From Asparagopsis taxiformis (Eukaryota > Rhodophyta > Florideophyceae > Bonnemaisoniales > Bonnemaisoniaceae): a stretch of DNA of 64,000 nt. Shown piece after piece: positions 20,973-44,805 of this stretch. The notes below the pieces were generated by a model. It made no database searches. It was not told the DNA's origin and saw nothing but the letters and a program-made list of their open reading frames with translations. The stretch is from positions 1-64,000 of the forward strand of contig JALQPE010002680.1 in the NCBI GenBank assembly GCA_030407315.1. Reading direction: 5' to 3'. The position numbers were made by a program, and so were the translations under genes. The first letter of the stretch is position 1. Every line of letters starts with the position of its first letter.

Positions 20973-20975
20973 ACG

Positions 20976-20993
20976 TGGTTCCACACTGGTCTC
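20976..20993 (+). other. Candidate primer-binding site
   Basis: TGGTTCCACACTGGTCTC starts 3 bases after the LTR end and begins with TGG, as expected for pairing with a tRNA CCA end. A second candidate starting TGGTCTCTCGACC lies at 20987. The tRNA is not identified. Confidence 0.35.
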
Positions 20994-21089
20994 TCGACCT
21001 AGAAGTTGCTACGAGCATTACGACAACCAACGAGGTTGAGCTCTTTTACGTTAACGAAAAGCTACGTGCTACGCTACAGACGACGGTCT

Positions 21090-24148: not shown

Positions 24149-25803
24149 AATTCTTCGTAGCCAACACGCTGGCTGTTCCCGTTATAATGGGCACGTCGTT
24201 CATGTCGAAGCATGTCGATGCTATACGCTGTCGAGCGCAGACAATCGACCTCCATCGGGGGGATACGATACCCATTATCGCGGAGGGCGATACGACGACT
24301 CCGTACGAGGAGGGGGAAGAGACGAATCCAAACGTGGAACACCCGAAACGCCGCGAGCGTAACGCGGCCTCGAATAGGCCGAGCCGAACGTTCTCGGTTC
24401 GCCTGACGAAGTACACGCGTGTACCGGCGATGTCGCAGCGGACCGTCAACGTGACGACGGATGCGACCGGACTCGTGTTCCTCGAGCCGAAAGCGTCGGT
24501 GCAATTCCGGCATGGGCTGCGCATAGCCAACGGAGTGGTCGACGTAGGACCGAGAGAGACGTTCTCTATTATCGTATCTAACTTCACGAAGAAGGACCGC
24601 GAATTGCCGAAAGGCGCGACGATTGCGTACGCGGTACGCTCCCCGTTGGGAATCGTCCCACTCAAGCGTGAGGGCGGCGAAGCCCTCGCGAAGGTTTTGA
24701 ACCTACCGCTAGTCGACGCGACGACGCGGACAACTACGAACGGGTTGGGCGACGCAACGCCAGACCCGTTGGTCAACGAAAAGGGGAACGACCCCGCCAC
24801 GGATTGGCAGTCGACAATCGATTTGTCGCACCTCGACGACGAGGATTTACGAAAGCGCATCAACGAGATGCTAGCTACACATTCGTCAATGTGGACGAGC
24901 GGACGCCTCGGCGAAATCAATGCTACGGAGCATCGAATCGAACTCGAACCGGGCACGCGGCCCATACGTTCAATGCCCTATCGTCAGGGTCCGGCTCTAC
25001 GTACGATAGCCGAGGAGCAGATCACGAAGATGCTCAACGAAGGGGTTATCGAACCCGCGTCCAGCGAATGGGCGTCACCAATCGTGTTGGTGCCGAAGAA
25101 GGACGGATCCTTACGTTTCTGTGTCGACTACAGACGTTTGAACGCGAAAACGATCGCTGATTCGTACCCGCTTCCTCGTATGGAAGACTGCCTCGATTCG
25201 TTGGGCGACGCAGCCATCTTCACGACACTAGATTGTAACGCCGGTTACTGGCAAGTGCCCGTCTCCGCCGAGGACCGTGATAAGACAACGTTTACGTCTT
25301 TCATGGGAACGTATCGCTACGTGCGAATGCCATTCGGGCTACGAAATGCCCCCGCTACGTTTCAGCGGACGTTGGACATCATCCTCTCCGGAGTACGTTG
25401 GCAATCGTGCCTGGTCTACTTAGACGACGTAATCGTCTTTTCGAAAGACCTCGAGTCTCACCTGGGTCACGTTGACCAGGTGCTTTCCCTGCTACGCGCA
25501 GCGGGAGTAACGTTAAAGCTCACGAAGTGCTCGTTCTTTCAACCACGAGTTGACTACCTGGGGCACGTGATTACCCCAGGGAAGCTGCACGTTGCAGCAC
25601 GGAACAAGGAAGCCTTTCGTACGGCTACGTTCCCACGCGACAAGACGCAATGTCGATCGTTTTTGGGCGCGGCCAACGTTTACCGCCGTTTCGTAAAGGC
25701 GTATGCCGAGATCGCTCGGCCACTCAACACGATGTTGAAGAAGGACGCTTCCCCGATTGGACGAACCCAACGGACGCGCAAACGAATGCGTTCGAAACGT
25801 TGA
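23890..25803 (+). pseudogene. Pol segment 2: protease end and reverse transcriptase
   Basis: This frame is -1 relative to segment 1 and carries the real sequence from about 24010. It includes the protease tail (VPVIMGTSFMSKHVD), a linker, then Ty3-type reverse transcriptase: RPIRSMPYRQGPA, SPIVLVPKKDGSLRFCVDYR, TLDCNAGYWQVPV, FGLRNAPATFQR and the catalytic YLDD (25417-25428). It copies element RNA into cDNA. The frame leaves the homology near 25750, after FVKAYAEIARPLN. The first 40 or so codons are out of frame. Confidence 0.85.
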
Positions 25804-26228
25804 AGACAATACTGGTGTCGCCACCAGTATTGCACCTTCCGAAGGCGGGACGTCCGTTCATGATCGATACCGACGCGTCGGCGTATCAGCTGGGAGCTAC
25901 GTTGCTCCAGCAGCAGAACGAGGACAAGCCCAACGAATGGGTGCCGATTGGGTACTGGTCGAAGACCCTCAACGAAACCGAACGCGGTTACTCGGCAACG
26001 GAGCGCGAGTGTTACTCCGTCGTCTGGGCGATAACGTCGCTCCGACCCTACGTAGAGGGTCAGCGATTTACCGTACGTACGGATCACGAAGCCTTACGTT
26101 GGCTGATGACGTTAACGGACGCGTCCGGACGACTACTACGATGGAGGCTACGCGTTGCCGAATTCGATTTCGAAGTACGTACAGGCCTGGGCGCGTGCAC
26201 CAGGTACCTGACGCTTTATCACGTGTGA
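25650..26228 (+). pseudogene. Pol segment 3: RNase H
   Basis: Another -1 step. It is homologous from about 25755: FPDWTNPTDAQTNAFETLK, PFMIDTDASAYQLGATLLQQ (first catalytic Asp), YWSKTLNETERGYSATEREC (catalytic Glu) and FTVRTDHEALRWLM (Asp). This is the RNase H of the Ty3/gypsy RT-RNase H pair. It leaves frame near 26190, just before the conserved PDALSR motif, which is found in the next frame. Confidence 0.85.
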
Positions 26229-28021
26229 TATCTACGTATGACGACGGTCGACCCGTCGACGATGACGTACCATCGTACGGGGACGCAGTCCTCGTGACGA
26301 CTCGCAGTCGGCGACAACCCACACGAAATGGGCAAGGACGAACGACGTCCGTACGTAAAAAGGCAACGAATGCCAGGGGTCACGACGACCCGTCGAACGA
26401 GACTCGTGATGAACGAACATCGGCCACGACGGCTGGCCACGATGGCTTCGAGTTCAACCGCGACGCGACGCTCGATGACGTTCTCGACGAGGAACCGGAT
26501 TTCCTCGACGAACAGCGCGCTGCCGAAGACGATTCGGCACGCGTGCCACCAGCTGACGTCCAGCTTCCCATTACGAGGGACGAGCTTATCGAAGCTCAAC
26601 GCGAGGACGCGTTCTGTCAAACGATACTGACACGACAGTCCGAGACGCAGGACGCTGCATTCTTCGAAGGCCACGATGGCCTACTCCGACGCCGGAACCC
26701 TCACGATGAGGAACGTACACAAATCGTTGTGCCGGCTTCGTTACGGCCGCGGCTGCTGGAGTTAACGCACCACCACGTCCTCGCTGGACATCCCGGGCAA
26801 ACGCGTATGTACTATACCCTACGGAGGACGTACTACTGGCCCGCGATGGCCGCCGACATCCATGCAACGGTACGAAACTGCGTTGGATGTGCGAAGAACC
26901 GCGTGAAGCTTCGCAAACGGACGAACCCGTTACGTTTATTTCCGGCTACGGAGCCGCTGCGAGACCTATGTATCGACATACTAGGTCCGCTTACGAAGAC
27001 CACGCGTGGTAACCGATTTATCCTCGTGATAACGGACCGCTTCACGAAGCTGACTAGAGTCGTACCTCTACGAAATATCGATTCCGCCAACGTGGCGAGC
27101 GCGTTCGTCAACGCGTGGGTCTTCTCGTATGGACCCCCACGGACGCTCATAAGCGACAACGGAAAGCAGTTCGCTGCTAAGTTTTTCCAGCGCGTCTGCA
27201 ACGAAATCGGCGTGACGAACGTCTTTACGTCGACGTACCACCCCCAAACGAACGGGCAGGTGGAGCGCTACAACAGGACGATCCTGGCGATGCTACGCAA
27301 TTACGTGAACGAAAACCAGAACGACTGGGATCGATACGCATCGGCGTTAACGTTTGCGTATAACACGCATGTGCATTCGAGCACGGGCACGACGCCCTTC
27401 GATTTGATTCTCACGAATCCACCGCCACCGTTGGCGCTACACACGTCGGTAACGAACCGCGAACTACCCGACGGGGGAGGGCGAGCCACTTACGTTCGTG
27501 AGCTCGCCACAACGATGGATAACGCGTATCGAACGCTGAAGGCCGAGCAGGCACGTTACAAACGAAATTTCGACAAGCGAGTCCGTGTCTCGAATCGAAA
27601 CATCCGCGCGGGAGAATACGTATTCATCGACCCGACGGACGGGACCACGAAGGGCACGAAGCTCGGCAACCACGCGTTGGGACCGTTCCGCGTACTACGT
27701 AACGACGTACGAACGTTCGTCATCCAACGAGGAGACGTAGTTGAACGTGTCAACTCGGACCGCGTTGCGTACGCGCCAACGCCGGCGAACGCGCCCCCGC
27801 CGGAGCCATACGATGCCACCGAGGCAGACCTCGACAAGAACCGCGATGGTCCGGCGTATGTAGTAGACGACCTACTAAACCATCGCGTAAACGATGACGG
27901 CACCCTAGACTTCCTCGTGAAGTGGGTCGGGTATCGTAACCCTACGTGGGAGCCCCGCCGGAACGTATCTGAAGAGAGCGTCTCTCGATACTTCGCACGC
28001 GTGCGACGAGCAACAACGTGA
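25757..28021 (+). CDS. Pol segment 4: integrase with chromodomain
   Basis: The frame carries the true sequence from about 26190 (RVHQVPDALSRVIS). It includes an acidic linker, the HHCC zinc site (LTHHHVLAGHPGQ ... NCVGCAKNR), and the integrase core with Asp in CIDILGPL, Asp in LISDNGKQF and Glu in HPQTNGQVERYN. A GPF-like region (LGNHALGPFRVLR) follows. The C-terminal chromodomain (VDDLLNHRVNDDGTLDFLVK, WVGYRNPTWEPR) is complete. In chromoviruses this domain targets insertion to modified chromatin. Codons before about 26190 are out of frame. Confidence 0.85.
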   Translation: MDEPNGRANECVRNVEDNTGVATSIAPSEGGTSVHDRYRRVGVSAGSYVAPAAERGQAQRMGADWVLVEDPQRNRTRLLGNGARVLLRRLGDNVAPTLRRGSAIYRTYGSRSLTLADDVNGRVRTTTTMEATRCRIRFRSTYRPGRVHQVPDALSRVISTYDDGRPVDDDVPSYGDAVLVTTRSRRQPTRNGQGRTTSVRKKATNARGHDDPSNETRDERTSATTAGHDGFEFNRDATLDDVLDEEPDFLDEQRAAEDDSARVPPADVQLPITRDELIEAQREDAFCQTILTRQSETQDAAFFEGHDGLLRRRNPHDEERTQIVVPASLRPRLLELTHHHVLAGHPGQTRMYYTLRRTYYWPAMAADIHATVRNCVGCAKNRVKLRKRTNPLRLFPATEPLRDLCIDILGPLTKTTRGNRFILVITDRFTKLTRVVPLRNIDSANVASAFVNAWVFSYGPPRTLISDNGKQFAAKFFQRVCNEIGVTNVFTSTYHPQTNGQVERYNRTILAMLRNYVNENQNDWDRYASALTFAYNTHVHSSTGTTPFDLILTNPPPPLALHTSVTNRELPDGGGRATYVRELATTMDNAYRTLKAEQARYKRNFDKRVRVSNRNIRAGEYVFIDPTDGTTKGTKLGNHALGPFRVLRNDVRTFVIQRGDVVERVNSDRVAYAPTPANAPPPEPYDATEADLDKNRDGPAYVVDDLLNHRVNDDGTLDFLVKWVGYRNPTWEPRRNVSEESVSRYFARVRRATT

Positions 28022-30386
28022 AAGGCCACGACGGCCCCCGAAAACGCACACGAGCGTCGGGTTAAGCGCACGCGTGCGCGACGTTGCACGATGCAACAAA
28101 CGAAGGCGACGAGCCGCACGAAAGAGAAGCGAAGGCACAACGAGTGGCCGGGACGTCCACCCTTGCGTTGGGGGGCGCGATGCGTGCTAGAGCCGTCGCT
28201 CTTTTCGTTTTCGACACCATACGATGGTGGAGGCACGAGCGCCAACGAAAGATTGGACGACGAGTCCACGCGCGGACGATTCACACGATGTGAAGAGCCA
28301 CGACTGGCTCGACAGTGTTGACCGTCCCACGGGCAAAGGTGACGACACCACGGGCCACGGACGGACAACACGTCAGATTTTTCGCGCGAAAAATTATACG
28401 TGGGCCAGCGGGCCATGGACGCACGGTACGAAAAATCGGGCCGATTACAGTGCGCTAATCCGGCCAAATCTCGGGACACGCGTGCCCCGAAAATTTCGTA
28501 ATTTCGGCATGTCACGTGAGCCATCGTACGTCCCCGTGGACAACCGCTGACAACGAGTCGCATCGACCAACGAGGTCAACGCCAAACAGCTCGCGAGCTA
28601 ACGGCAACGTGACGCCGGAAGGCGGAGAAACGACGTAGGACGGACGCGTCCCCAACGAAGATGGCAACGGCCTCGTTACGAAACTCCCCGCACGAAGCGG
28701 AACGAAGCTATACGTTAGCCGACGAATTAGACCAACGGGTCTCAGCGCACGAAACGCGCGAGTAAAGCGTGCGAACGACGAGCCAACGAGGCCGCGACGA
28801 CGGGCGGCGAACCGTATCGCCACCGTGAGGCACGACGCCGAACGCGGTAGCCACGTACGGCAACCACGGAACGACACAACGGTGTCCTGCCACGCGGGCA
28901 TAGCGAATGACGCGCGAAAGCGAAAAGCCCGCCGGCTAGTCGAGACGCACGAGCAAACCCGAAAGGGGTTGACCACGTACGGTCACGAAGGCTAAGACGC
29001 GCACGTCCGCATCGCAAAACGAGAAGCTAACGAGCTTAGACCCCGTTCGAATTCGAAGGCGCGCGCGGCACCGGCCACGTCGGCCAGGATACGAGCGCGT
29101 ACGCGGACGTCGCTAACGATAACGACGCACGCCAACGGGCCGAACGTACGAAACGAATACGAATACGCAACGGCGTACAAGCTGGTAGCCAACGTAAACG
29201 GCACAGCTGAAGGCAACGTCTGCCGACGAACCTGGCTCACGTAACAGCCTCAAACGCCCGCGGGCGTGCGAAACGACTTCGTCAATCGCGTCCCCGTCGG
29301 GTTCGCAAGTCGAATAAACTAAATTACGCAACGGCGTAGAGGGCGAGCATTACGTATGCCCAGGTGCACGTCGCACCACATAACGGATGAGCTAACGAAA
29401 CGCTCCTCGGACGCCGCGGCGAACGACGCCACCACACGAAGCGGACTAGCGCAACGATTGCGCCACCGGCTAACGTGAAGCCGCGGGAACGTGAAGCGCG
29501 ACGGCGCTAACGGTGTTAACGGCTATACGAAAAGCCAAGCCCGCCGGCAAAGACGTTGTCTACGGAACCGCGACGCGCCACGACGCACTGCCGCGTACAC
29601 GCAACGGCGTGAAACGTCAAGCCAACTCACGCGCGAGTCGGCCTGACGCTTAGCGAATTTTTCGTCCGGCTCACCGGAGCGAATTAAATTGGCACCGACG
29701 TGCTACGTGCCAGAGAGCTCGAATGCTCAACGGAATTCGACACCCGACGGGGTTATCCGGACGAGGAACGACGGCGGAAACGATTCCTGAGTTAGTTACT
29801 AATGATACGCACGCCAACGGGCTCTAAGATCGAGGTTAACGTACCACTCGCAGTGAAAAGCCGCCGCTACGCGCCGCCGCTTTGCCGAATAATTGCGTGT
29901 GTTACGAACTTGCCAACGGGCACGCATCGCCGCGAACTCGAAGCACGGGCTACGTAAGCCGTACGACACCCGACGGGGTAGACGCCACAACAAAAAAATT
30001 GTGGGGAGGGGCTTAACGCTAACCCCTCCCCCGCTGCAGACGACCTGCCAACACGTATTACGAAGCTCAACGGAGCCATGCGATTACGCAAAGAAACAAA
30101 CGAAAGTTTACGAAGCAGCTCGATGCTAAAAGCCTACGAGGCCTACGACTAACCACGGAACGACGCCAACGGGCGGGCCGCGATGATTACGAAGAGTCGG
30201 AGCGCGCGCGCACTCCGGCGCCGTGGCGAACCAATCAGCCAACCGGGCCGCGTACGTTTAAACGAGATTTTTCGGGACAACTGCCACGTCCGCAGTTGTA
30301 CCCGAAAAGGCGCCACGGCCCCGTGTCTCAGGCGCGTCCTAACGGGCCTCGCGTGGCCGGGACGTCCACGTGTGGGGGTGGGGCTG
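28022..30386. other. Long non-coding 3' segment of retrotransposon
   Basis: 2.4 kb between the pol stop and the 3' LTR. Composition stays ACG/CGT-rich, like the coding part. Open frames on the minus strand (for example 27556-28563) are mirror frames of a CpG-rich text without domain features. No env-like or antisense gene is recognised. Confidence 0.6.
30371..30386 (+). other. Candidate polypurine tract
   Basis: The G-rich run TGTGGGGGTGGGGCTG directly abuts the 3' LTR start, the expected position for plus-strand priming. Confidence 0.45.
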
Positions 30387-31039
30387 TGTAGTATACGTGG
30401 CAATTCCGAAATTGCAAATATTTACGTTTTCCGCGGAATTCGAATTTCGCCGGATACGACCGGCGACAGCAATGCACGACCATTGCTGGCGCATGCGCGC
30501 GCGCAACCTGCACACGTGTGCAACGAACGTATTGGCAACGGCCAACGGACCAACGGGTCCCTACGTGTGACCCACAAGGTCCCTTCCCATTCGGGGACGT
30601 TACGAGCAGTGTTTACACTGTAAAGCGATGCCATCGTGGCCATATAGGTATTGGCATCGTGCCGGGAGGGAAAGGGGACAAGACAACGATCGAGCAACGG
30701 CTCTAGTCTACGACTGACTTCTACGTTTACGTTTACGTTTGGCCTAACGAGGCTTCGTCTCCGTCGAGCTGCGTACTCCCTACCCATCGCCGCACGTAAG
30801 GCTGATTGCGTGTAGTGCCTCCGGGCTTGGTCGAGAGCGCCTCCGGTGACGTACCACCTCGTGTGCTAACGTAATCCTCGCGTGGATTGTTGCGTCGTGA
30901 CGCTCGTGTCTACTCGCTAACCACTCTACCTTCTACCGTTCTAACAATACAGTCAAACACCAGCGGGTGGACTGCTCGTTTCGTTTCGTAAGGACAGCGT
31001 GTCCACTGGCTCGTACCAGCTACTACGTCTAACGAACTA
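30387..31039 (+). repeat. 3' LTR
   Basis: It begins TGTAGTATACGTGG at 30387 and ends AACGAACTA, followed by the target duplication TCGTT. It matches 20335-20972 along its length with scattered differences, so insertion is not brand-new or one LTR has been altered. Confidence 0.8.
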
Positions 31040-31044
31040 TCGTT

Positions 31045-31583
31045 CCACAGAGTGCTCGGATTTCGTCATCCGGAGGGAGAGGGGCTTGTCTGTGTACACA
31101 CCAAGCTTCTGAAACAGAATGCTACATACAGTCAGAGCAGAGGAGGTCATGGAACTGTTGGAATCGAATGGAGGGGGTAGAGGATGTTTGGCAGCTGACT
31201 CCAGCTTTTCCAATCTTGCCAGCATTTCTGCTACGGTCTTCTTCATTTGATCCGCAGTGCAATCTTGAAGGATGCCGCGGTGGCGGTGGCGAGTGTGGTC
31301 AATGCCGTAGTCCGGGTCTCTCTCTGCTGGGGATGCAGGTGAGTCCATACTGCGAAGCTCACCACTTCGCCACGGGAGAACCCTTCCGGAATCCTTGTCG
31401 ACGAGCTCGTTACGATCTGAAATCTTGACTTGAGAAAGGGTAGAGTCGAAACCATATTCAGCTTTGTATTCGAGCAATGCATGGAGGAATGGGTCTGTTT
31501 CAGTCTTGACCTGAGTAATTTCCTTGACGATTGCAGACCACCACACAATTTTTCGTTTCCTCCCAAACGGCCGAAGTTCCCAT
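31045..31583 (-). pseudogene. Truncated Tudor-like/coiled-coil gene
   Basis: An ATG at 31583 starts MGTSAVWEETK. One extra A in the run at about 31548-31552 shifts the frame into IVWWSAIVKEIT. The W..WW.A.V.EI pattern matches the Tudor-like module of the protein at 45789 (VWFQVGDDAIWWKATVVEI). A polar region, PWRSGELRSMDSP, then a short coiled coil (MKKTVAEMLARLEKLES) follow. The frame is cut at 31045 by the retrotransposon after KSEHSVE. It is thus a 5' fragment with one frame break. Both the domain call and the relation to 45789 come from by-eye comparison. Confidence 0.55.
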
Positions 31584-32133
31584 TGAACTTATATAACGTC
31601 GTTTGGAGCGAGAGGAAGCATGTTGGGATAGCTATGGAATAGAATTGTTGTATTAGTGAAAGCCTAACCGTTACCTTCTGCTAAAGAGTAGTATATACTA
31701 GGAGGATTGGAAAGGTCGAGAAGAGATGTTTAGGTGGTGTAGAAATAGAATGGACAATTGACAAAATTGACACGTCAGTGTGGATGATGTCTGCCATGAA
31801 CTGATTGCAGCATAAAATTTGATGTGAATAATCGTTCTAGAAGTGAATGTCGGATGCATATGATTGGACTACAAAGATACGTTTAGAGATGTTACGGGGC
31901 CCAATAAATTGCATGGAAAAATATTTTGAGTATTACTTTAGTATTACATTGATTATTGAGCTAACAGTCGATGTAGTTATCTTGTAAAGGTTCGGACAGG
32001 GTGGAAAGGAAACAGCCACCGAAGTGCTACCACTCGCTGACACTTTGTTTTAAACAACCAACTTCTGCTTTGCGCCACCCTGGTCAAGCAGCAACCTACT
32101 ATTCCTTTCTTAAAAACTCTACCTTTGTTCGCC
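31584..32133. promoter_or_regulatory. Intergenic region between divergent genes
   Basis: AT-richer than the genes. It must hold the promoters of the truncated Tudor-like gene (minus) and the methyltransferase/SET gene (plus). A TATATAA lies about 10-15 bases upstream of the 31583 ATG on the minus strand. No repeats of the listed families occur here. Confidence 0.4.
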
Positions 32134-35100
32134 ATGGAAGGAACGTTCCACAATCACGGTGAAAAGCACGACGGATGGGTGTTCATCGACCCCAATCAAG
32201 TCAGCAAATTCGTATCGATTCGCGATGTTGATGGAAGTCATGTGGAAGCGCTCATGGAGAGCATTCGCAACAGCGGTTATGACACAGCTCATCCCGTGAC
32301 TGGCAGGTTTCGAGAAGGCGTTCTGGAGATATTGGATGGAGCGCACCGCTGCATGGCAATTGTACGTGGAATGGAAAAGGGCGTCTTTCCTCCTGGCGTT
32401 ACGATTCCTATGCGAGAAGAGTCTATCGTGGCGGACACCAACAGCAGTACTGCTGTTGTGCTGGACCGTGTGAGAGCGACGACATCCAACGACATTGCAG
32501 GCCTGCAAAGGCGCATGATGTTTGTTGAGTATCTGATGATCGCCGTTGATCTCAGAGACGAGTACTGGGTCCAAAACGGAAAGGACAAGTACGCTCACAT
32601 TTCGTCTGTGAGGATGGCTGATGTGTTGGGATGGATCAAATCCTGCGATCCAAGCGGCCAAATTGCTTCAAGCCTGAGTGGTAAACCGCAGTACAGCTCA
32701 TGCATGTCTATTCTGGCTGTGCTTCGGCCGTATCACCGAGCAGAAGATTCGAGTTCGATTGATTTGCGTCTGTGGCAAATGTTTTGTCATGTATGGGGAC
32801 TCAATGCAGAGATGGGTGATTCTCCGAGGATGGTTGAGTTTCCGAAACAGGTGGGGGTGACTAGTTGTCGTGCCGTCGAAATGTTTGGCAAGACACCCCG
32901 CGGAGAATTGTCCTCTCCACTGAACCGCGAACTGCTTTCGAGCAGGTACTTTCTGGACGGCGCTACATCCGACATGCAAGATTCTTTGCAGGCTAGCCAG
33001 AAGCGATTCAGGAGGCTGATGGTTATGATGTGCCAGTGTATCTTGGCTATTCGCAGTAAGGAGATGGGCAGTGTGCCATCTAGGCGGGCCAGAGCCACAT
33101 CCGGGGCCATTGGTGGTGGTGGAATGGTTGGAATTGCAACATCCAGTGCGCAAGCCAACCAGCTTGGATTTGTTGTCGACCGTGTGTTAGCTGCATGGGA
33201 TACCGGGGCAAGAGTGTTGGGGTATGAGGATGTTGAATCGATGTGCTGGCCGTTCATGGTATTCGATCCCGCGAGCCTTTGCTTCAGGTCACTCCCGAAT
33301 CGGTCTGATGGCTGTGCGGTCGAGGAGCATCGGAAAAACCTGACCATTGTCCCGAAAACTGTAGACAGTGAAAACGGGTTCTGTGCCGACCTTCCAGTGG
33401 CTGTGGATGCAAGGCTGCGATCATTGACAAGCGCCTTCCTGCTGTCGATACGCCAATGTGTCACTGAGGTGAATGTGTTCGCCGAGCGTGGTCAGCTGAT
33501 GCAGAGACTTCGAGCCTTGCTTTTCGACACTCCTGACAAGTTCGGCTTGAACTCGTTCATGCGAGCCAAGTTGAACACGTCTCATGCCCTGGATGGTCAG
33601 AGGAGGCTGAAGGCTTGGTTATTGCGAACCCGAGAGCAACGAAAGCTTCCTCTGACCATGGATGAGTTACACAGTCTTGAGGATACGCCCGAGCCTGGCA
33701 TCCTTGAAGGTGCACCTGCGCAGATGGAAATATCCGCAGCAGTGCCAAACAATGGCAGCGAGGATATAGAAGAGGATAGTCTGGAGCCACAGAGGAAGAA
33801 GGCTAGGCTGGAGTGCGGTGGTGGAGAGGACGATAATGCGGCGGTTGCTAGCGAAACAGCAACAAGAGAAGGTGCGGAAGAGGATGACGCTATGGAGGTT
33901 GACACTGTATCGCCTACAGAAGCACCGCTCGTTGACGTCGGAAAGGAAACCAAGCCAGAATACGTCACCAAGCTGGAAGCTGTGATGGGGCGTTACATTC
34001 ACACTGTGAATTGTGACGCCACTGATGTAGCCAAAGAGGTGGAGGACAAAATTAGTTTCCTGGAAGATGGCGTGTTGGAGGACAGTGTTCAGCTTGTGCT
34101 CACTGATCCTCCATTCAACACGAGGCGGGAAGGCGGCAGAGAAAACTCGGAGTACGATATTCTGGAGCCGGAAGAGTTGGCGAGTGTTGCGTGTGAAATA
34201 GTTCGAGTTCTTCGGCCTGGCGGCCATGCTCTGATCTATTCCAGCGTGCGCCAACTCGTGGCATGGATGGATGCAATCAGAAATGCCGAGCCTGGCAAGA
34301 TGATTGTGGACAGTGTTCCAGTCGTGCTATCTCGCCGACCACACAGCTTTACGTCCAATCCATCGACGAAAACGTGCACACTGCATAATATGCACGATTT
34401 CGTTATCCATGCGTATAAGCGGGGGAAGGGTATGGCTGCATACGATATGGTGGATTACAGGTTGCACAATCCGGACATATCGAGGCACCCTGGGTTCACC
34501 AACGCGATTGACAACGTTCCGAGGTTGTCGGCTGGTGAAGCTCAATACGATGGGCAGAACAACCGACTGCGCCATGAGCAGAAGGCGTTGACCACTCTTC
34601 GTGAGCTTCTGGAACGATTTTCGAAGCAGAACGATATCGTGATGGATTTCTTCTCGGGAACGTACAGCACAGCCATAGCGTGTATGACGTTGAGGGATGG
34701 TACGTATCGTCGGTTCATTGGGTGTGAGAAGGAAAAAAGGTGCCACGATGCATCGCAGGAGTGGATACTGCATGCTTTCGTCAGTGAGGTGAAAGCCGGG
34801 CGATATGGGGGGATCTTGCAGCGTGAGGTGGAGAGTATTCTTGGGGACGAGTCGGTACCGGTCACAGGAAAAGCTCCAAGGATTCGTCAGAAGCACATCT
34901 CAGATGCACCAGAAGGATTCCCTGCTGTGACAGCATTGCCGAACCATCTGCTTGTGTTCGTTGCGTCAATGAAGAAGGACGGGTCTATGCTTCACAGATT
35001 GAGCGGGGTGCCTATGGACCAGTGGCCGGCCGAGGACATGCACTCGTTTTGGAGCATAGACCCGGACGCGATTCTGGCTGCCGATGCCGCATTCTACGGT

Positions 35101-35601
35101 GTCTATGTTTCGCAATCGGAGGTAAGAGGTGGTGGGTTTGGCGTATTCGCGGCGAAGAAACTGAAGAAGGGGACGGTCATTGGCTGGTACAACGGGACGA
35201 TTTTCTATGCGAAGATTCGAGACTCGGAACCGCAGAGATCAGTGATGTACGGCCCGGAAGGATTTGGGTGCACAGGAGAGAGGTTCCAGGACTACAACAT
35301 GGAATTGGAAACCACGTACATAGGGAGGGGTGCACCTGTTCGGAAGGTTTGGCTCGTTCCAGCGGTCTATAGTTGTACCAGCTACCTCAATGATTGTCGG
35401 GTCATTGACGGAACGGAGAAAGCGACCGAGGTGAGTCGAACACAGTCAGCCGAGTTTCGACAAGGCGATGCCATAGACAAACCGGACTTTGCTTCAAATA
35501 TCAAGAATCCCCATGCTGTCAAGGTCGTTCTGACCAGAGACGTTGAAGCTGATGAGGAGATATTTGCTGACTATGGTAGAAAATATTGGCCAGCTAACTG
35601 A
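32134..35601 (+). CDS. ParB-like/DNA methyltransferase/SET fusion protein
   Basis: This is an intact 1,155-aa protein. The ATG at 32134 (context GCCATGG) is preferred over an in-frame TTG at 32125. Residues 12-90 are ParB-like (VFIDPNQVSKF; ILDGAHRCMAI at about 66-76). Residues 90-550 are shared with the paralogue at 50.7 kb (VLAAWD block) and end in an acidic linker with QRKKARLE. The DNA methyltransferase has catalytic LTDPPFNTRR (Asp-Pro-Pro-Phe 658-661) before the AdoMet motif MDFFSGTYSTAIAC (about 837) and FIGCEK, the beta-class order of N6-adenine/N4-cytosine enzymes. The C-terminal SET domain, about 985-1155, has GGGFGVFAAKKLKKGTVIGW and EEIFADYGRKYW. The usual NHS motif reads SYLNDC. 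Predicted to act on chromatin in the nucleus. A convergent dioxygenase gene lies 1.2 kb away. Confidence 0.85.
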   Translation: MEGTFHNHGEKHDGWVFIDPNQVSKFVSIRDVDGSHVEALMESIRNSGYDTAHPVTGRFREGVLEILDGAHRCMAIVRGMEKGVFPPGVTIPMREESIVADTNSSTAVVLDRVRATTSNDIAGLQRRMMFVEYLMIAVDLRDEYWVQNGKDKYAHISSVRMADVLGWIKSCDPSGQIASSLSGKPQYSSCMSILAVLRPYHRAEDSSSIDLRLWQMFCHVWGLNAEMGDSPRMVEFPKQVGVTSCRAVEMFGKTPRGELSSPLNRELLSSRYFLDGATSDMQDSLQASQKRFRRLMVMMCQCILAIRSKEMGSVPSRRARATSGAIGGGGMVGIATSSAQANQLGFVVDRVLAAWDTGARVLGYEDVESMCWPFMVFDPASLCFRSLPNRSDGCAVEEHRKNLTIVPKTVDSENGFCADLPVAVDARLRSLTSAFLLSIRQCVTEVNVFAERGQLMQRLRALLFDTPDKFGLNSFMRAKLNTSHALDGQRRLKAWLLRTREQRKLPLTMDELHSLEDTPEPGILEGAPAQMEISAAVPNNGSEDIEEDSLEPQRKKARLECGGGEDDNAAVASETATREGAEEDDAMEVDTVSPTEAPLVDVGKETKPEYVTKLEAVMGRYIHTVNCDATDVAKEVEDKISFLEDGVLEDSVQLVLTDPPFNTRREGGRENSEYDILEPEELASVACEIVRVLRPGGHALIYSSVRQLVAWMDAIRNAEPGKMIVDSVPVVLSRRPHSFTSNPSTKTCTLHNMHDFVIHAYKRGKGMAAYDMVDYRLHNPDISRHPGFTNAIDNVPRLSAGEAQYDGQNNRLRHEQKALTTLRELLERFSKQNDIVMDFFSGTYSTAIACMTLRDGTYRRFIGCEKEKRCHDASQEWILHAFVSEVKAGRYGGILQREVESILGDESVPVTGKAPRIRQKHISDAPEGFPAVTALPNHLLVFVASMKKDGSMLHRLSGVPMDQWPAEDMHSFWSIDPDAILAADAAFYGVYVSQSEVRGGGFGVFAAKKLKKGTVIGWYNGTIFYAKIRDSEPQRSVMYGPEGFGCTGERFQDYNMELETTYIGRGAPVRKVWLVPAVYSCTSYLNDCRVIDGTEKATEVSRTQSAEFRQGDAIDKPDFASNIKNPHAVKVVLTRDVEADEEIFADYGRKYWPAN

Positions 35602-35871
35602 GCTACTTTGATAGATTTGATAAAACACGCATTGACAGAGACAATAGACTGTGCATCATCTTCCAAGAGCGCTAGATATTATAGACTACACTACAACAAT
35701 CGTGACATGACTGCAGGAAGGCATCTGCGGTCTGGAGTGCAAACTATCCACTTTTCTACTGCTATACCTATGGATACGAAAAGGAGAGAAACTAGAAAGA
35801 TGTGAGTGAGAAATTGTGTAGCAACGCAGCATGTAGAACACCAGTAAGAGAGCGATGTAGGAGAAGCAGTC
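35602..35871. other. 3' flank of the fusion gene, no gene
   Basis: No coding frame or recognised repeat before the hairpin cluster. Confidence 0.5.
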
Positions 35872-36345
35872 ACCCCATTACAGTGCGGGCCGTTTACCGG
35901 GGATGCTGACAGCAAAGTCATCGTTACGATGACTTTGCTGTAAGAAAACAAATCATTACAGCAGCCACGATTTCTTTACCGGGTAAAAAATTGTGGCCGC
36001 TGTAATGAAACGTTTTCTTACAGCAAAGTCATCGTAACGATGACTTTGCTGTAAGAAAGCAAATCATTACAGCGGCCACAATTTTTTTACCCGGTAAAAT
36101 TTCTTGCTGATTTTTTACCCGGTAAAAAATTCTTTGGCCACTGCAAGGAAACGGTTCCTTACAGCAAAGTCATCGTTACGATGACTTTGCTGTAAGAAAG
36201 CAAATCATTACAGCGGCCACAATTTTTTACCCGGTAAAGAAATCGTGGCTGCTGTAATGTTTTCTTTTCTTACAGCAAAGTCATCGTAACGATGACTTTG
36301 CTGTAAGGAACCCTGGTAAACGGCTTCGGCTGTAAGCAGCAGGGA
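35872..36345. repeat. Foldback hairpin cluster 5
   Basis: Four 39-bp palindromes (about 35905, 36017, 36158, 36269) have centres alternating TTA, TAA, TTA, TAA. TTTTACCCGGT/ACCGGGTAAAA spacers and inverted outer flanks (GGCCGTTTACC ... GGTAAACGGC) complete it. It lies downstream of a dioxygenase gene, at a distance similar to cluster 1 from the decayed paralogue. Confidence 0.8.
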
Positions 36346-36811
36346 ATTTCGTCGTTCTCCCATCTTAGTAAAGGTGAGAAGCGAAGTGTGAAGTCGGGAA
36401 AATTGCTCAGCAAAGGTCTGTACGGCTGTGAGCAGCTCGCAGGAGTATTTTACCTCACGTGGTCTCTGTTCTGGGTATACCCTGTATATATATAGGTAGC
36501 CTAGTGTAGGTGGGAAGATAGACGAAAATTCTACCAATAATTTATCACAGTGACGGCTCTCGTAGTCGAAATCTGCGCGTTGTCAAGGGTTGAAACTAGT
36601 CTCCCCCTACGGCCTAGCTAGTAAAATCATACAACGTTGTAGACTAATATTAAAAAGTAGCAAGCAATCTGCTGAGTAGCACTAAACTATGAGATGAAGG
36701 CCAGATGTATAGATGAAAACCGAAAAGTGGGCTAAGATAACAATGTTGAGATGAGAAAGACAGAACTTTTTAGCAGGGAACAGTAGTATAGGTTTTAATA
36801 CTTCTGGTATG
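36346..36811. other. 3' flank of dioxygenase gene
   Basis: About 36575-36811 matches the reverse complement of 4741-4985. The rest is unique. No gene is visible. Confidence 0.55.
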
Positions 36812-38263
36812 CTATCTATTGCTTCTATCGTACTTGTAATATTCGACGGTGTGGATGTGGTCCGTGAGGACGTCCTTCTCCGTCTTCAAGTAGATGTGGC
36901 CGCGCGTGGGCAGGCCATAGACTAACTTCTCGCCTGCAGGAAGATCTCCTCGGCTGAAGCCGACCCCGTAATGGTAAAGGTCACCGCGACCAACCAATAC
37001 GGAATAGGGTGGCACCCAAAAGGTGAGAGGGGGAACCTTCCACATATCGGCGTCCGGATTGACCAGGCATACATGACTATAGGGGGCAGCTACTATAAAG
37101 AACCCATCGGCTCCGCTCGACATCATGAAATATGATGGAAACTCGGTAGGTCCTGCAACACGACTCGTTGATACCTTGAAGTCCGTGTGCCCATCCTGGT
37201 CCGCAGCCCCATCTGCTGTAAGAAGCAGCCGCAATCCTGTCTTCGGGAAGAAGACAGGATCATCACCCTCCATTCCCAACTTCAAGAACTCCGCACAAAC
37301 ACCAAGAGCAAGCTCTGCCACCAACTTGTTCTTGTACATCTCCAGATTCCCCTCCTCCAGCTTATCGCACAACTCACGCCGCGGCAGAGAGAGGCGCCCA
37401 CGACCACCATCTATGCGGTCCTTCGCATCACCCACGTTGTGGATGAACTGCCACGGCGAAGGATCGAAGCCGGGCTTTGCGAAAGCTGGCGGCTCGTCCT
37501 GTGGCTCCCTGTCGTCATCGTTAGAATCAGACTGCTGGGAGTGTTTTTCAACCTCCTCAACCAGCGGGAACTGCCTAGCGAAGTGACCGAACAACTCATG
37601 CGTCGCATTACCAGCCGTGGACGATGCCAACAGGCCTTCCATAACAATAACCCCCAAGTTTTCCAACAATGCCTTCTTCACCGCAAAGTACCTGTCCACC
37701 ACCGTATCCTCAGCACCCGGCGATGCAGCTGCCTGGAATGCTGCCGCCCTCATTTCCGCCCTAACCGTCTCCACCGTCGTACTTTCCATATAGTACTTCA
37801 TCCGGCTGCCAGACGCAATTGCGCTGGGGAGAACGGCGGCCACATTCTCATCGACGATACTGTCGGGAATGGGATTCTCCTGGGCGTCGTCGAACTGGAG
37901 AACCGGCTCCCGAGAGCGACCTCGGGAAGCCGACTTGGATTTCTTTGACGAAGACTTCGAAGAAGTCTCACCGAGCCTTCTCTTTTTGGTAGAAGGCTCG
38001 GGCGTCGCAGAAGCTGCTTCCAAGTTACGCTTCCCGAGGATGGAGTTTTCACCCGCATCCTCGGGGGCGCTCTCCAGCTCGACGACCTCCACAGCACCAC
38101 CCGCCGTTCCACCACGACCGGAACGACTCGCTTGCAGGCGGGTACTCCTTCTGGGCATCACTTTCCTCCCAGAAGTTTCCACTCCGGGCGGTGCAGAATC
38201 ACTGACTTCAATGATATCTTCGTCAGGATCTGCACCGTCCTTCGCACTGCTGCCCTCGACCAC
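36812..38263 (-). CDS. 2OG-Fe(II) dioxygenase with nuclear-type N-terminus
   Basis: The frame is 483 codons long, starting at a GTG. The first in-frame ATG is at 38158 (MPRRSTRLQASRSGRGG), and the frame stays open upstream to about 38450, so the true start is uncertain. The N-terminus is basic and Ser-rich (TKKRRLGETSSKSSSKKSKS), a probable nuclear signal. The C-terminal half holds the double-stranded beta-helix features: FPKTGLRLLL, HxD (His-Thr-Asp, 37189-37181), YFMMSSGADGFFIV, and the distal His in GRGDLYHYGVGF (His codon 36973-36971). Arg or Lys in GEKLVYGLPTRGHIYL may bind 2-oxoglutarate. Such enzymes hydroxylate or oxidise bases or residues; the substrate is unknown here. It is the intact paralogue of 3.3-4.7 kb. 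Confidence 0.75.
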   Translation of the reverse strand: MVEGSSAKDGADPDEDIIEVSDSAPPGVETSGRKVMPRRSTRLQASRSGRGGTAGGAVEVVELESAPEDAGENSILGKRNLEAASATPEPSTKKRRLGETSSKSSSKKSKSASRGRSREPVLQFDDAQENPIPDSIVDENVAAVLPSAIASGSRMKYYMESTTVETVRAEMRAAAFQAAASPGAEDTVVDRYFAVKKALLENLGVIVMEGLLASSTAGNATHELFGHFARQFPLVEEVEKHSQQSDSNDDDREPQDEPPAFAKPGFDPSPWQFIHNVGDAKDRIDGGRGRLSLPRRELCDKLEEGNLEMYKNKLVAELALGVCAEFLKLGMEGDDPVFFPKTGLRLLLTADGAADQDGHTDFKVSTSRVAGPTEFPSYFMMSSGADGFFIVAAPYSHVCLVNPDADMWKVPPLTFWVPPYSVLVGRGDLYHYGVGFSRGDLPAGEKLVYGLPTRGHIYLKTEKDVLTDHIHTVEYYKYDRSNR

Positions 38264-38640
38264 ATTCTCGGGAGTAGGGCCCTCCGTCGAAATCCTCGCA
38301 GCCGTCTTCTGTTCAACCCCACCGGATGGTGAAGGGACGAAACTGTCATCGCTGGAGCTTCCCGAACTGCTAGCAGATGCAGAACGGGAAGCTTCGACAG
38401 CGGGGCCGGAGCAGCAGGGTGCTGCTCGGCAGCCGGAGTCGCAGGCTCAGCTGCGAAGCCGGTGAGACCTGCTCCTGCGCGGCTTGGACAGGGCGGTTGG
38501 GGGTACCAGTCCCGGCGTGGGAAACTGGACCAGAGCGTTCGCTGCCATCCTGGGGACCACGCGCAGTCGGCTTGACCGGGGTCACCGCAGGGGAGGATGC
38601 CGACACGGCAGCACAGGATAAGCAAAAATAGAGAATATTC
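38264..38640 (-). other. Frame-broken 5' extension of the dioxygenase gene
   Basis: Three successive minus-strand frames read a Pro/Ala/Ser-rich text: MSASSPAVTPVKPTARGPQD (from 38606), then EPATPAAEQHPAAPAP, then AVEASRSASASSSGSSSDD, which is in frame with the main gene. Each step is -1. This suggests a longer original N-terminus with two lost bases; introns are an alternative. Near 38615-38640 the leader GCTTATCCTGTG is shared with the transposase gene. Confidence 0.45.
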
Positions 38641-41144: not shown

Positions 41145-43253
41145 CTAGAGTATCATGCAGTCCTTGGCGGATATCCATCTGCTCTTGAAAAAAATAGAGA
41201 AGGAACCACCATCCATAAACGAAGGACCTCCATGCGTAATTCCTCTATTCGAAGTGCCTTGCTCCACAGAACATAATGAAGGGCTACAATTGTGGAGGAG
41301 ACCAACCTTACGAACCCCTGAAGTGAGAGGGAGAAACCAGGAGCCGGAATCGGTGTTCGGAGCAAACGTAGTGGGGGAGGACTTCTGCTTGATAACTGGA
41401 AGAACAATAGCGTGTGGTGGAGACAGGTTTTCCTGGTGAGATTCGTGTATGCAAACGTTTCCCGGTGAAGCAATGTTTCCATCAATAGTCAGGTCAAACA
41501 CGGTGGTAACAGCCCAAAAAGAAGGCGAACAGGTCTTCTGTAGAATTCTAGAAGACGGGGAAGCTGAGTAGCAAGCTTGTACTACACAGCCAGAAGCTAT
41601 TTCTTGTGGCTTTGAAAAGTCCCGAGACGCAGCAGAGGGCGAAGCTGCACAGGCAGGGTGGGCAGAACTGAGACGTGCTCCCTTGCATGGTTTTCCACGA
41701 AGCATGACTGCATCCGAATTCTGCCCACAGGAAAAATCCTGCTGTGGTAATGAAGAGGGAACTCCTGTCCACGAGTAATATGAATATGGAGAAGAGAAGA
41801 ATGGTAAAGAAGACCTATTCAAATGTTCGAGAAGGGGTTCTTGACAGAGGTCATGCAGCGTACTAGCCGGGAGGTTCTCCATGGATTTACAGTGCTCCCG
41901 TCCGAATAGAACACGAAGGAGAAACCGTTTAGAACGTTGTCTCTCCACAGATGCTGGAGTAGAATTGGAGAAACTTTTCAAAGCAAGATGGAGGCTTCCT
42001 TTCCAATAGTTTCCGAGTGCCGCTAACATAGCATCCAACTGTCTGTCAGCACCTCCGGAATGCTCTAGACCTCGTTTCATTTGTTGATGTGTTGCTTCGA
42101 ATGATAGCTCAGCTACCTGGCGAGCGTGTCCGAGCAGAGGAACAGTGTGTTCAAATGCCTCAATGAGACGGTGCAAGTTTGGCTTATTGTGGAGAATCTT
42201 CCTTGCCCGGAATCCAGCAGTCTTGTTTTCCATCTCAATGTGGTCATTATCATTCGTTACTATACCTTCTGTCTGCATCTTCCGTTTCTTCGAGACCGCT
42301 GTGCTCCGCTGTCTGGTAGGAACAGTCTTGAGCAGGTCATCCACTAGAGTAGCATATTCTTTCGATAGCTGCTGCAGACGACGGAGACTGTTGTGCGCAG
42401 AATTCCCTGTAGCTCTCTGTACTGCCTCAGAACCGTCGATATTTTTTCGTGGTAGGAAGTATGTAGCTGCAGATATAGAGGACAGGAGACGAAAAAGTTC
42501 TAGAGACAGATGGCGTTGCTCTTCAGAAGCCTGGAGTGACCTTGAACCGCTACCTTTGGATGACCTTGTAGTCTGCGATTGGAATTTCAGAGAAGACCTG
42601 AAGCAGTGTTCGGCGACGAGGAGAACTGCAAATCTGTCCGAGATTCCCATTGTATGAGTTTCACCTGCGTTGAAGTTATATATCTTGTTCTGATTTGCGA
42701 GACCCAATACACGGAGGGCATCCACCATGAACCTGTCGGCCAGCCTTCTCACACCATCATTAGGCAAGCTTGAAAAAGCATTGTCCAGAGCATCCTTTGC
42801 CAGTCCGTGGAGGAGATGGTCAATTCCAACAAACGTCGAACGGTATGGGTCCAGAATAGCAGGCACGACAGGGATTCGTAGACCATCGTTTCCGAGTGGT
42901 GTCCCGGTTGGAACCAGCCCTTTGGACCTAGCTTCATGAAGTAGTCTTTCAATGAGATGCAATGGAGTGTCTGTGATATTTTGCACTGTTCTCAAACCCA
43001 GATACTTCAAGATGTTTGCAGAACTTTCCGATGACTGAACAGCAGCTGTTCGCTCGGATGTGCGAAAGTGTGTATCAGAGCTCGAATGTAAACGGGTGTC
43101 GTAGCCAAACTGCGAGTTCTTCCCATATTTCCCCCCTCTTACAAAGAAACACAAATGGCATGGGCAGTCTGCGTTGTGCCCCATGACATCCAGCACATGA
43201 GAACAGGCAGGATAATCCGATACGAAACAATAAAGTCCAGGAAAATTATACAT
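41145..43253 (-). CDS. tnp2-like transposase, C-terminal part
   Basis: 702 codons from an ATG overlapping the upstream frame by 8 bases. It starts with FVSDYPACSHVLDVMGHNAD and a CPCHLC cysteine pair, the region holding the second catalytic Asp in tnp2/KDZ-type DDE transposases. FVGIDHLLHGLAKDAL (Asp 145) and ELSFEATHQQMKRGLEH (Glu 386) resemble the later acidic positions. SKKRKM at 321 is a possible nuclear signal. The last 200 residues look disordered. The enzyme would cut element ends and move them. A TGA sits just before its ATG, so it was probably the back half of one protein with the frame upstream. The superfamily call is by motif pattern only. Confidence 0.6.
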   Translation of the reverse strand: MYNFPGLYCFVSDYPACSHVLDVMGHNADCPCHLCFFVRGGKYGKNSQFGYDTRLHSSSDTHFRTSERTAAVQSSESSANILKYLGLRTVQNITDTPLHLIERLLHEARSKGLVPTGTPLGNDGLRIPVVPAILDPYRSTFVGIDHLLHGLAKDALDNAFSSLPNDGVRRLADRFMVDALRVLGLANQNKIYNFNAGETHTMGISDRFAVLLVAEHCFRSSLKFQSQTTRSSKGSGSRSLQASEEQRHLSLELFRLLSSISAATYFLPRKNIDGSEAVQRATGNSAHNSLRRLQQLSKEYATLVDDLLKTVPTRQRSTAVSKKRKMQTEGIVTNDNDHIEMENKTAGFRARKILHNKPNLHRLIEAFEHTVPLLGHARQVAELSFEATHQQMKRGLEHSGGADRQLDAMLAALGNYWKGSLHLALKSFSNSTPASVERQRSKRFLLRVLFGREHCKSMENLPASTLHDLCQEPLLEHLNRSSLPFFSSPYSYYSWTGVPSSLPQQDFSCGQNSDAVMLRGKPCKGARLSSAHPACAASPSAASRDFSKPQEIASGCVVQACYSASPSSRILQKTCSPSFWAVTTVFDLTIDGNIASPGNVCIHESHQENLSPPHAIVLPVIKQKSSPTTFAPNTDSGSWFLPLTSGVRKVGLLHNCSPSLCSVEQGTSNRGITHGGPSFMDGGSFSIFFKSRWISAKDCMIL

Positions 43254-44805
43254 TCATTGCCGTCTGGATCGACATCACGAAACCCGACGTACATCCTTGA
43301 ATAATGTCTCTAGAGATATGTCGAAGGATATGGTTTGTACTAACACCAGGACCTGTGACACCGATAACGCGCACAGCAGAACTGTTCCGGCGACAGTCCA
43401 GCGGAAGACCCATTGGGAGCATATAGCATCCTCCAGCACTCCCTTTCTTACCAGAGGCTTCATTGAAGTCATCGCAGTATAAAAGAAATGGATAGACGTA
43501 GTATGTGGTACCGCAGCTGAGAACCCCACGGAGATGTGTAGGATGAAAGGGGCTGGAGCTCGTGCCTGGTTTCAATAACTTGACATTATTGATTGCACGA
43601 GTTCCGCCGACAACTTTGTAATGCCCTTCAGAGTTGACGAGAAAGAGCAGTTTTCGTGATGGGCCTGGCGGTCCGGGAGAGCTGACGACAAGCCCAATGA
43701 AGAACTGTATACCACAATTTTGAGTAGGGTTACACTCAGGACTGGGTGATAAAACTGTCAGGTGATCACCCGGCCGAGCATATTCCCGGAACGACTCTTT
43801 CTGAAGGATGAAGGCGGACCCATATGAATGCGGGGAGACCGAAAGCCTACTATGAAATGTGGCACCGGAGTTTATCCATGAAGAAGATGTGATAGCTTTG
43901 AACGACTCATGGCTGGAAGATAGTGATTCATGTTGGAAAAGGGAACTGAGAGTAGGATCTAGAGAAGAGGCGTGCTGCCCTGATGTGACATGCAGTTCCA
44001 CAATACTACCACCGAAAGCAGAAACGGGAAAGCCGTCTTTTACCACCTCCGCCCTCATCGTGTAGTTTTGTCCTTTTGAGGAGTACTCTCTGAATTTTCC
44101 TATCTTCGACTTGCACACGTTACCATGTAAACTTAGTATGTCATCCGAGTCGGAAGCATCCAATTGTGTGTTATCACGCCACGCAAGGTCGAATATATGT
44201 GGTGCAGTAATGTCTGCTCGTGCATATTCGCTTGGTGGAACGATAAGTACAGGTGCTGATTGACTAGCTTTGTTTTGTTCCACCTTGCTTCTTCGTAGAA
44301 TTGCAGAAGAGGCAACACGAGCTGCACTACGCTCTGCGTTTACAGGGAAGTATACGGTTTCCGAACGTAACCATGCGTTGAAGAACAGCCACGGTCTTAC
44401 CTTACGCACTATTGTCGAATAATGGGGTAGACTTCGCTGAACGTGTTTGTTCGTGGAACCTTGTCTAGCGAAATCGAACAACACGCGATCTTCCTGAAGG
44501 TTTGCTGCGGTGCATTTCGTCGACCCTGTCAGTTTGGCGACAGCGTACAACGTTGTCCATTCTGTCATGTAATTGCGAGCTTTGTCTGGATTGGACGTGT
44601 TCATGATAAAGGGAGAAGAGATTAGGAGCTTCGCTTCTGCTTCCTCCTGTAGAAACAGGTCGTTGTCATCCGAATCGGGGTCGTTTGTTGCGGTGACGTT
44701 CTCATGATGGTCGGAAGCAGCGGGATGGCACAGTTCAGGAACTGTCGCAGCAGAAGTGACGGGGTCTCTGCCGGAGGATAGTACAATATCACACAGGATA
44801 AGCAA
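43246..44805 (-). CDS. tnp2-like transposase, N-terminal part
   Basis: 519 codons opening with a TTG; the first in-frame ATG is at 44604, yet acidic coding-like sequence (NDPDSDDNDLFLQEEAEAKL) precedes it, so the start is uncertain. The end carries TYYVYPFLLYCDDFNEASGK and GCYMLPMGLPLDCRR, matching the first catalytic Asp region of tnp2-like transposases (DDF followed by Gly/Ser and a Leu-Pro). The frame stops at 43246-43248. Reading the other two frames in turn (VDPDGNECIIF, then PGLYCFVSDYPA) bridges smoothly to the next segment, implying two lost bases near 43250-43280. The middle is unrecognised. Confidence 0.6.
   Translation of the reverse strand: MLILCDIVLSSGRDPVTSAATVPELCHPAASDHHENVTATNDPDSDDNDLFLQEEAEAKLLISSPFIMNTSNPDKARNYMTEWTTLYAVAKLTGSTKCTAANLQEDRVLFDFARQGSTNKHVQRSLPHYSTIVRKVRPWLFFNAWLRSETVYFPVNAERSAARVASSAILRRSKVEQNKASQSAPVLIVPPSEYARADITAPHIFDLAWRDNTQLDASDSDDILSLHGNVCKSKIGKFREYSSKGQNYTMRAEVVKDGFPVSAFGGSIVELHVTSGQHASSLDPTLSSLFQHESLSSSHESFKAITSSSWINSGATFHSRLSVSPHSYGSAFILQKESFREYARPGDHLTVLSPSPECNPTQNCGIQFFIGLVVSSPGPPGPSRKLLFLVNSEGHYKVVGGTRAINNVKLLKPGTSSSPFHPTHLRGVLSCGTTYYVYPFLLYCDDFNEASGKKGSAGGCYMLPMGLPLDCRRNSSAVRVIGVTGPGVSTNHILRHISRDIIQGCTSGFVMSIQTAMNV

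Follow-up and report, generated by a model that had tools for sequence, protein, structure and literature searches.

Transposons that encode their own DNA methyltransferases have been described in algae. According to the accessible text of PMC12477816, the Sola1-1_Ec32 transposon of Ectocarpus encodes a protein of 1104 amino acids with a ParB-like domain and an N4/N6 DNA methyltransferase, similar ParB-like/methylase proteins occur in transposons of green and red algae (credited there to Iyer 2011 and Petroll 2025), and the authors of the Ectocarpus study propose that these proteins mark their own transposon. The same text cites Petroll 2025 for red algal EnSpm elements of giant size that carry several accessory genes. 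In this study, we analyzed a 64,000-nucleotide stretch of DNA (the window), which is part of contig C2552 in a 141.5-Mb assembly, and its gene for a ParB-like / N6_N4 DNA methyltransferase / SET protein, named MTS (sequence P0001). The gene belongs to a giant DNA transposon, called element A here, which shows EnSpm/CACTA features and is present in hundreds of copies in the genome.

As far as PMC12477816 describes the Ectocarpus protein, it and MTS are both ParB-like proteins with an N4/N6 methyltransferase, of about 1100 amino acids and from giant DNA transposons. MTS differs from it by a C-terminal SET domain (the term 'SET domain' has no occurrence in the main text of PMC12477816) and by its carrier, which is EnSpm/CACTA-like and not Sola1, and its element adds ParB/2OG-Fe(II)-like partner genes and arrays of a 37-bp palindrome. 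The giant EnSpm elements of red algae, as cited in PMC12477816, belong to the same superfamily and probably to the same host group as element A. Because ParB-like/methylase proteins of transposons and the idea of self-marking are already in print, the broad idea is not new here. The initial annotation knew of no characterized protein with this domain order, which has to be narrowed: ParB-like proteins with an N4/N6 methylase had been reported from algal transposons in the available part of PMC12477816, whereas no description of the SET fusion, the ParB/2OG-Fe(II)-like partners, or the palindrome arrays was found in the literature covered, from which Petroll 2025 and Iyer 2011 were left aside.

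Other transposons and eukaryotic genes show partial likeness. In fungi, TET/JBP genes are reported from 11 lineages of DNA transposons, including EnSpm and KDZ, and these likewise combine a DNA transposon with a DNA-modification enzyme, in this case a dioxygenase; in the available part of this source the term 'ParB' has no occurrence and no fusion of a DNA methyltransferase with SET is named (PMC12730594). A further difference is that the dioxygenase-like domain here matches no Pfam model. The same partial source reports SET genes within HarbingerS and MuDR DNA transposons of Phytophthora, which resemble element A in this respect, without mention there of a fusion to a DNA methyltransferase or a ParB-like domain (PMC12730594). 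The N4CMT protein of bdelloid rotifers, described in the accessible text of PMC8885841 as an N6_N4_MTase with a chromodomain and as an allelic gene pair in the sequenced bdelloid, is also a bacterial or phage beta-type amino-methyltransferase that was captured by a eukaryote and joined to a eukaryotic chromatin domain. MTS, however, is a multicopy transposon gene with a SET and a ParB-like domain, whereas N4CMT, as described there, has a chromodomain reader. MTS is a real and interesting variant of the known transposon-borne methylases, not a new host chromatin protein.

The gene and its domains are located in the window as follows.

32134..35601, plus strand, MTS gene, intact, 1155 amino acids, no internal stop on translation
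32167..32436, plus strand, predicted ParB/sulfiredoxin-fold domain with DGAHR, residues 12-101 (PHROGs matches, structure model)
34087..34758, plus strand, N6_N4_Mtase domain, residues 652-875, with DPPF followed by FSGTYSTA (Pfam)
35134..35577, plus strand, SET domain, residues 1001-1148 (Pfam)

The single intact frame, the beta-class methyltransferase, and the C-terminal SET domain had all been proposed in the initial annotation and were confirmed. Residues 652-875 matched the N6_N4_Mtase profile (PF01555, E 2.3e-16, 60.9 bits against a cut-off of 26.7), and DPPF at 658-661 precedes FSGTYSTA at 840-847; this profile together with DPP[YF] ahead of F-x-G-T places MTS in the beta class. This part resembles beta-class enzymes of phages and bacteria in sequence searches, and its closest solved sequences are the adenine enzymes DpnA (1.8e-11), MboIIA, and CcrM, which is suggestive of N6-methyladenine (6mA) as the product. 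The initial annotation had suggested that a captured phage-type methylase gained a SET domain and now marks both DNA and chromatin protein; the methyltransferase part does have a phage-like character, and such a history and such a double activity may be regarded as possible. In the profile search set as the test of the SET assignment, residues 1001-1148 matched PF00856 (E 4.2e-6, 27.6 bits against a cut-off of 22.4). Canonical SET motifs are NH-x-C-x-PN and a catalytic Tyr. The segment in MTS ends in DYG and contains the Asn, with Asn-Asp in place of Asn-His at what we take to be the SAM-binding position.

The proposed ParB-like N-terminus was upheld by some comparisons and not by others. Pfam ParB gave no match in MTS up to E 1, while the PHROGs database matched residues 23-104 to phrog_4272 (E 2.3e-5) and residues 30-78 to phrog_1033, 'ParB-like partition protein' (E 0.0068). 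In the structure model, ten-residue blocks had pLDDT values of 65-88 across residues 11-100, and the model matched ParB, Noc, and sulfiredoxin structures; ParB proper is marked in addition by an HTH that binds parS and by a CTPase clamp, but in MTS the helical part beyond residue 105 is of low confidence, and a single structure-search row (8qa9_B) covers 13-192. These results place the N-terminus, as modeled, in the ParB/sulfiredoxin superfamily, with a predicted Srx/ParB fold and a (D/E)G-x-(H/R)R box.

Relatives were sought in one protein search, of which the best 7992 candidates were scored, and four were found among these: P0002 (99% identity), P0003 (43%, full length), P0004 (30%, full length), and P0005 (742 amino acids). 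The same architecture exists elsewhere, since the full-length P0003 and P0004 retain all three parts. The motifs DPP[FY] and F[SA]GT were present in all five members examined (P0001, P0003, P0004, P0005, and a diverged second copy in the window, the element B copy described below). DGAHR is shared by P0001, P0003, and P0004; the element B copy has lost it, and P0005 lacks it together with the N-terminus. The SET domain was above the Pfam cut-off in P0003, P0004, and the element B copy and below it in P0005 (17.1 bits), and its end motif was DYG in P0001, P0003, and P0004, EYG in element B, and lost in P0005. A later alignment-based search returned P0002 alone.

A genome protein search with MTS gave 3823 candidates, and all of the 40 best, which were scored, were free of stops, about 99% identical, and matched over residues 1-1155 (1-1154 in one). 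The open state of these copies and the full-length relatives with three parts show that the frame is not a product of chance; both the MTS protein and its family are real and are properly seen in the setting of a giant EnSpm/CACTA-type transposon. Exact 32-33-mers were found genome-wide 403 times for the ParB part, 415 times for the methyltransferase part, and 384 times for the SET part. In ten plus-strand contigs picked from these lists, the three k-mers lay at about the expected spacing, exactly in five and off by 1-2 bases in the other five, where the shifts would break the frame unless they are assembly errors. Among eight copies, the mean divergence was 0.38%, with 26 synonymous and 11 nonsynonymous variants (pN/pS 0.12), and the window copy with five more gave 25 synonymous and 13 nonsynonymous variants (pN/pS 0.15), values biased downward by the choice of both sets from the 40 best-scoring copies. 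Both sets depart strongly from neutrality (about 1e-9 for the eight-copy set and 2e-8 for the six-copy set). These results indicate purifying selection on the MTS sequence among the copies examined, and their low divergence indicates a recent spread. For other genes of the element, pN/pS was 0.18 for a 453-amino-acid open reading frame (ORF) in five copies and 0.36 for a 508-amino-acid ORF in four of five, excluding the C436 copy, which has stops in the given frame.

The eukaryotic source proposed in the initial annotation was corroborated by one contig of the assembly with nine full-length phycobilisome matches, two of which are possibly one gene at both contig ends. This points to an alga with phycobilisomes as the host, and a red alga is the simplest candidate.

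Element A, about 25 kb in size, was studied in stretches around MTS copies on five contigs (C1561, C390, C436, C931, and C1833), and the window holds a part of it.

31050..38611, plus strand, partial element A copy, 96-99% match to element A on five other contigs, left part cut at the long terminal repeat (LTR) of a gypsy element, similarity stopping at 38611
31049..31621, minus strand, remnant (residues 1-191) of the element A 453-amino-acid ORF (sequence comparison)
35907..36306, no strand assigned, four 37-bp palindromes between MTS and the next gene (pattern search, hairpin prediction)
36812..38263, minus strand, C-terminal part of ParB/2OG-Fe(II)-like gene 1 with HxD ... H, a motif-level label (sequence comparison, motif alignment)

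EnSpm/CACTA (CMC/CMCT) elements are defined by terminal inverted repeats of the form 5'-CA..TG-3' (CACTA..TAGTG), a 2-5 bp target-site duplication, and a DDE transposase with C(2)C between the second D and E. All five stretches share a left end about 4.58 kb upstream of the MTS ATG, and three show the right end, 14.8 to 20.3 kb downstream of this ATG; in the other two, the similarity ends at +7.6 kb (C1833) or the contig is too short (C931). The termini are 13-bp inverted ends, CACTACGGTGTTG...CAACACCGTAGTG, starting with CACTA in all 13 end pairs looked at. Longer end patterns occurred genome-wide 468 times for the left end (two free positions) and 889 times for the right end (one free position), and reversed control patterns had no match genome-wide. 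A 2-bp target match, a length picked after a 3-bp match had failed, was found in six of ten end pairs (C436, C19, C117, C192, C104, and C215) and not in C101, C21, C1561, or C390. Three further pairs with a common right flank and no 2-bp match (C174, C183, and C59) were set aside; the probability of these matches by chance is 1e-5 for six of ten, or 7e-5 for six of 13 with the latter counted, without correction for the prior three-base attempt. Element A thus probably has 2-bp target duplications at its ends. Contigs C20 (85041/85192) and C214 (6108/6259) show the same configuration, with 151 bp between a right end and a left end, which suggests either that one element inserted near an end of another or that both contigs share a duplicated site.

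From left to right, element A carries the 508-amino-acid ORF (plus), the 453-amino-acid ORF (minus), MTS (plus), ParB/2OG-Fe(II)-like genes 1 and 2 (both minus), and a 1267-amino-acid transposase (minus). MTS is open in all five copies, while some other genes are broken in some copies; gene 1 is a single open frame of 1253 codons in C436, and in C1561 and C390 the same holds for the full transposase. Of 17 aligned transposase rows, 16 have data at each block, and all of these retain the first D, the second D (in D-x-PA), the C-x-x-C pair, and the E; the pair begins 19 residues after the D of D-x-PA, and the E precedes a conserved His. The transposase had no Pfam match, so that the D/D/C(2)C/E assignment is at the level of motifs, and the 21 relatives found carry neither a Pfam domain nor a specific name; there was no PDB sequence match.

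The two further ParB-like genes of element A bear a 2OG-Fe(II)-like (dioxygenase-like) motif. All four partner C-terminal domains compared share H-x-D, a downstream H, and adjoining residues, and are mutually related by BLAST. These domains had no Pfam match and no PDB profile match below E 0.6, and the structure prediction (pLDDT 33) was too low for fold comparison. The name 2OG-Fe(II)-like is therefore a motif-level label for a weak dioxygenase call, and we do not claim membership in the 2OG-Fe(II) dioxygenases (TET/JBP or PhyH-like).

The window contained 15 copies of the 37-bp palindrome TTACAGCAAAGTCATCGTNACGATGACTTTGCTGTAA, each with 0 or 1 mismatch (3 allowed), where none is expected. 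Mean pairwise identity was 0.98 within the palindrome; on its two sides it fell to 0.47 and 0.42 over the next 30 bases and to 0.32 and 0.31 beyond them. In the stretches around the five copies, where a 31-base core was allowed at most 2 mismatches, palindromes were found only in intergenic gaps of element A (up to three): 3' of MTS in five of five, between the ParB/2OG-Fe(II)-like genes in four of five (C1833 is cut short), and before the transposase 3' end in three of five. A 33-bp core, which is its own reverse complement save the middle base, so that both strands yield the same count, had 8,326 exact matches genome-wide against none for controls. Single-stranded, the palindrome folds into a hairpin of 17 pairs, and repeats near the left end of element A (GACAGTAAATTTACTGTC and variants) differ from it. 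Such a palindrome is the kind of site that would suit a sequence-specific dimer, and the ParB-like proteins may bind it as a putative site.

Additional genes of the window resemble those of element A or belong to other mobile elements.

1..14427, minus strand, complete 14.4-kb element with element A's inverted ends, 11 palindromes (5170-9684), and pieces of a relative of the ParB/2OG-like gene in several frames (about 2407-4671)
15283..16284, plus strand, ParB-like ORF with DGGHR, related to the ParB half of ParB/2OG gene 2 (E 6e-32) but itself without a PHROGs match
19513..20646, minus strand, 2OG-Fe(II)-like ORF that overlaps the gypsy element's left LTR (motif and BLAST)
20335..31049, plus strand, chromodomain-bearing retrotransposon of Ty3/gypsy type with gag, RT, and integrase, 95.5% similarity between its LTRs, adjoining the MTS element
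41145..44805, minus strand, element B transposase, two overlapping frames of 519 and 702 amino acids
47621..49303, minus strand, 560-amino-acid ORF, relative of the element A 508-amino-acid ORF (E 7e-10)
50571..54166, plus strand, element B MTS, diverged second copy, two overlapping frames of 799 and 418 amino acids, with DPPY, FAGTFSTA, and SET kept and DGAHR not
55960..59363, plus strand, element B ParB-like (DGLHR, 800 amino acids) and 2OG-Fe(II)-like (334 amino acids) frames (PHROGs, motif, sequence comparison)
60732..64000, minus strand, right end of a further copy of the 14.4-kb type, running off the window (359-3197 and 61160-64000 are 99.6% identical)

The diverged genes were grouped as element B on the premise that they form one element, whose ends were not found. 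Element B repeats most of the gene set of element A in diverged form, and if its genes are one element, the combination is older than the present burst. Its MTS and ParB/2OG-like genes run on in an overlapping second frame (52910-52970 and 58359-58362), which could reflect decay, a short intron, or programmed frameshifting. A repeat family of about 70-120 nt, TAAAATTTGG...CTGCAGTAAAAAG, flanks the element B genes in both orientations (49534-50322, 54314-55454, and 59772-60731), and may serve element B as a site array of its own instead of the 37-bp palindrome. The 800-amino-acid ParB-like frame (55960-58362) contains a Cys/His-rich stretch, PCSLGPHCRFPG...HKCTAC...HNLCDYPRVHHL...CSRRCYDGRQP, which by eye looks like a zinc finger, and a similar ORF spans and passes the right end of the C1561 element (L026:8727-9998).

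The 14.4-kb element at 1-14427 had no MTS or transposase match, and at six loci that belong to other elements, whose ends lie about 14.5 kb apart, no element-A protein was found within the 3.7 kb tested. A 35-nt tandem repeat lies in the right end of the 14.4-kb elements (359-805 and 60991-61605), with unequal array lengths between the two copies of the window, and a 172-nt tandem repeat in four copies (8733-9548) adjoins the palindrome arrays. The two flanks of the gypsy element match different stretches of other contigs, and no 5-6-bp target duplication was found; either a rearrangement between elements or an assembly join would account for this.

Since MTS is a gene of a transposon in hundreds of copies, and not a host chromatin gene, its likeliest target is the transposon itself. 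Transposon self-recognition and self-marking is our best reading, on which we are evenly divided between acceptance and doubt. The ParB-like domain would direct MTS to transposon DNA, most simply via the palindromes, as bacterial ParB binds parS; the beta-class domain would then methylate an exocyclic amino group (6mA or N4-methylcytosine, 4mC) at the element, and the SET domain a lysine, for which a histone or the transposase is the probable substrate. In this way, the transposon might give its own copies an element-controlled chromatin state, either to escape host silencing or to time or limit transposition, and the ParB/2OG-Fe(II)-like proteins, brought to the same sites, might remove or oxidize the marks. 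More tentatively, this may be a partition-like system, in which the palindromes are parS-like addresses read by ParB-like proteins with opposed enzymes (a two-mark writer with DNA-methylase and SET domains and dioxygenase-like erasers), setting a two-layer epigenetic state on the element's own copies independent of host silencing; we consider this version possible but doubtful. The palindromes could, about as tentatively, be sites for the transposase or the product of the 508-amino-acid ORF, or intergenic hairpin terminators, with the ParB-like domain otherwise employed (clamping that depends on nucleotides, or contact with proteins). Binding of the transposase or the ORF product would have a parallel in plant CACTA elements, whose repeats are bound by TNPA. 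Against this reading, the left-end repeats of element A are unlike the palindrome, and conservation of 98% over all 37 bp against 31-47% in the flanks exceeds the need of a terminator hairpin.

An action of MTS on host chromatin, as a captured and repurposed modifier (a trans-acting anti-silencing or host-manipulating factor), has precedent in transposon-borne epigenetic enzymes such as TET/JBP in fungi and SET in Phytophthora, as reported in the available part of PMC12730594, but it is unlikely, because the ParB-like domain sits in an element with conserved palindrome arrays, which favors self-targeting. A non-catalytic SET domain, kept as a scaffold or as a decaying fusion, is rather doubtful, though a little less so than an action on the host: the Pfam scores are weak, Asn-Asp occupies the presumed SAM-binding position, and P0005 is below the cut-off and has lost the G-x-G and DYG-like motifs, whereas P0001, P0003, P0004, and element B keep G-x-G, the Asn, and a D/E-YG end, and the SET part has one nonsynonymous against three synonymous variants among eight copies. 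The size of about 25 kb and the phage-like methyltransferase and ParB-like genes would also fit an endogenous giant virus fragment, but the precise CACTA ends, the DDE-type transposase motifs, the hundreds of copies, and the shorter elements with identical ends but without the genes make this origin highly improbable; moreover, of two pattern-based scans of IMG/VR, the one with P0001 gave no relative, and the one with the alignment gave six weak loci for the methyltransferase part.

If the transposon does recognize and mark itself in this way, DNA amino-methylation and lysine methylation would be joined in a single one of its proteins, and the system would have address sites of its own. This would help to explain the high copy number of 25-kb elements in a 141-Mb algal genome, and whether mobile elements carry their own epigenetic identity, beyond escaping that of the host, would become testable in a seaweed.

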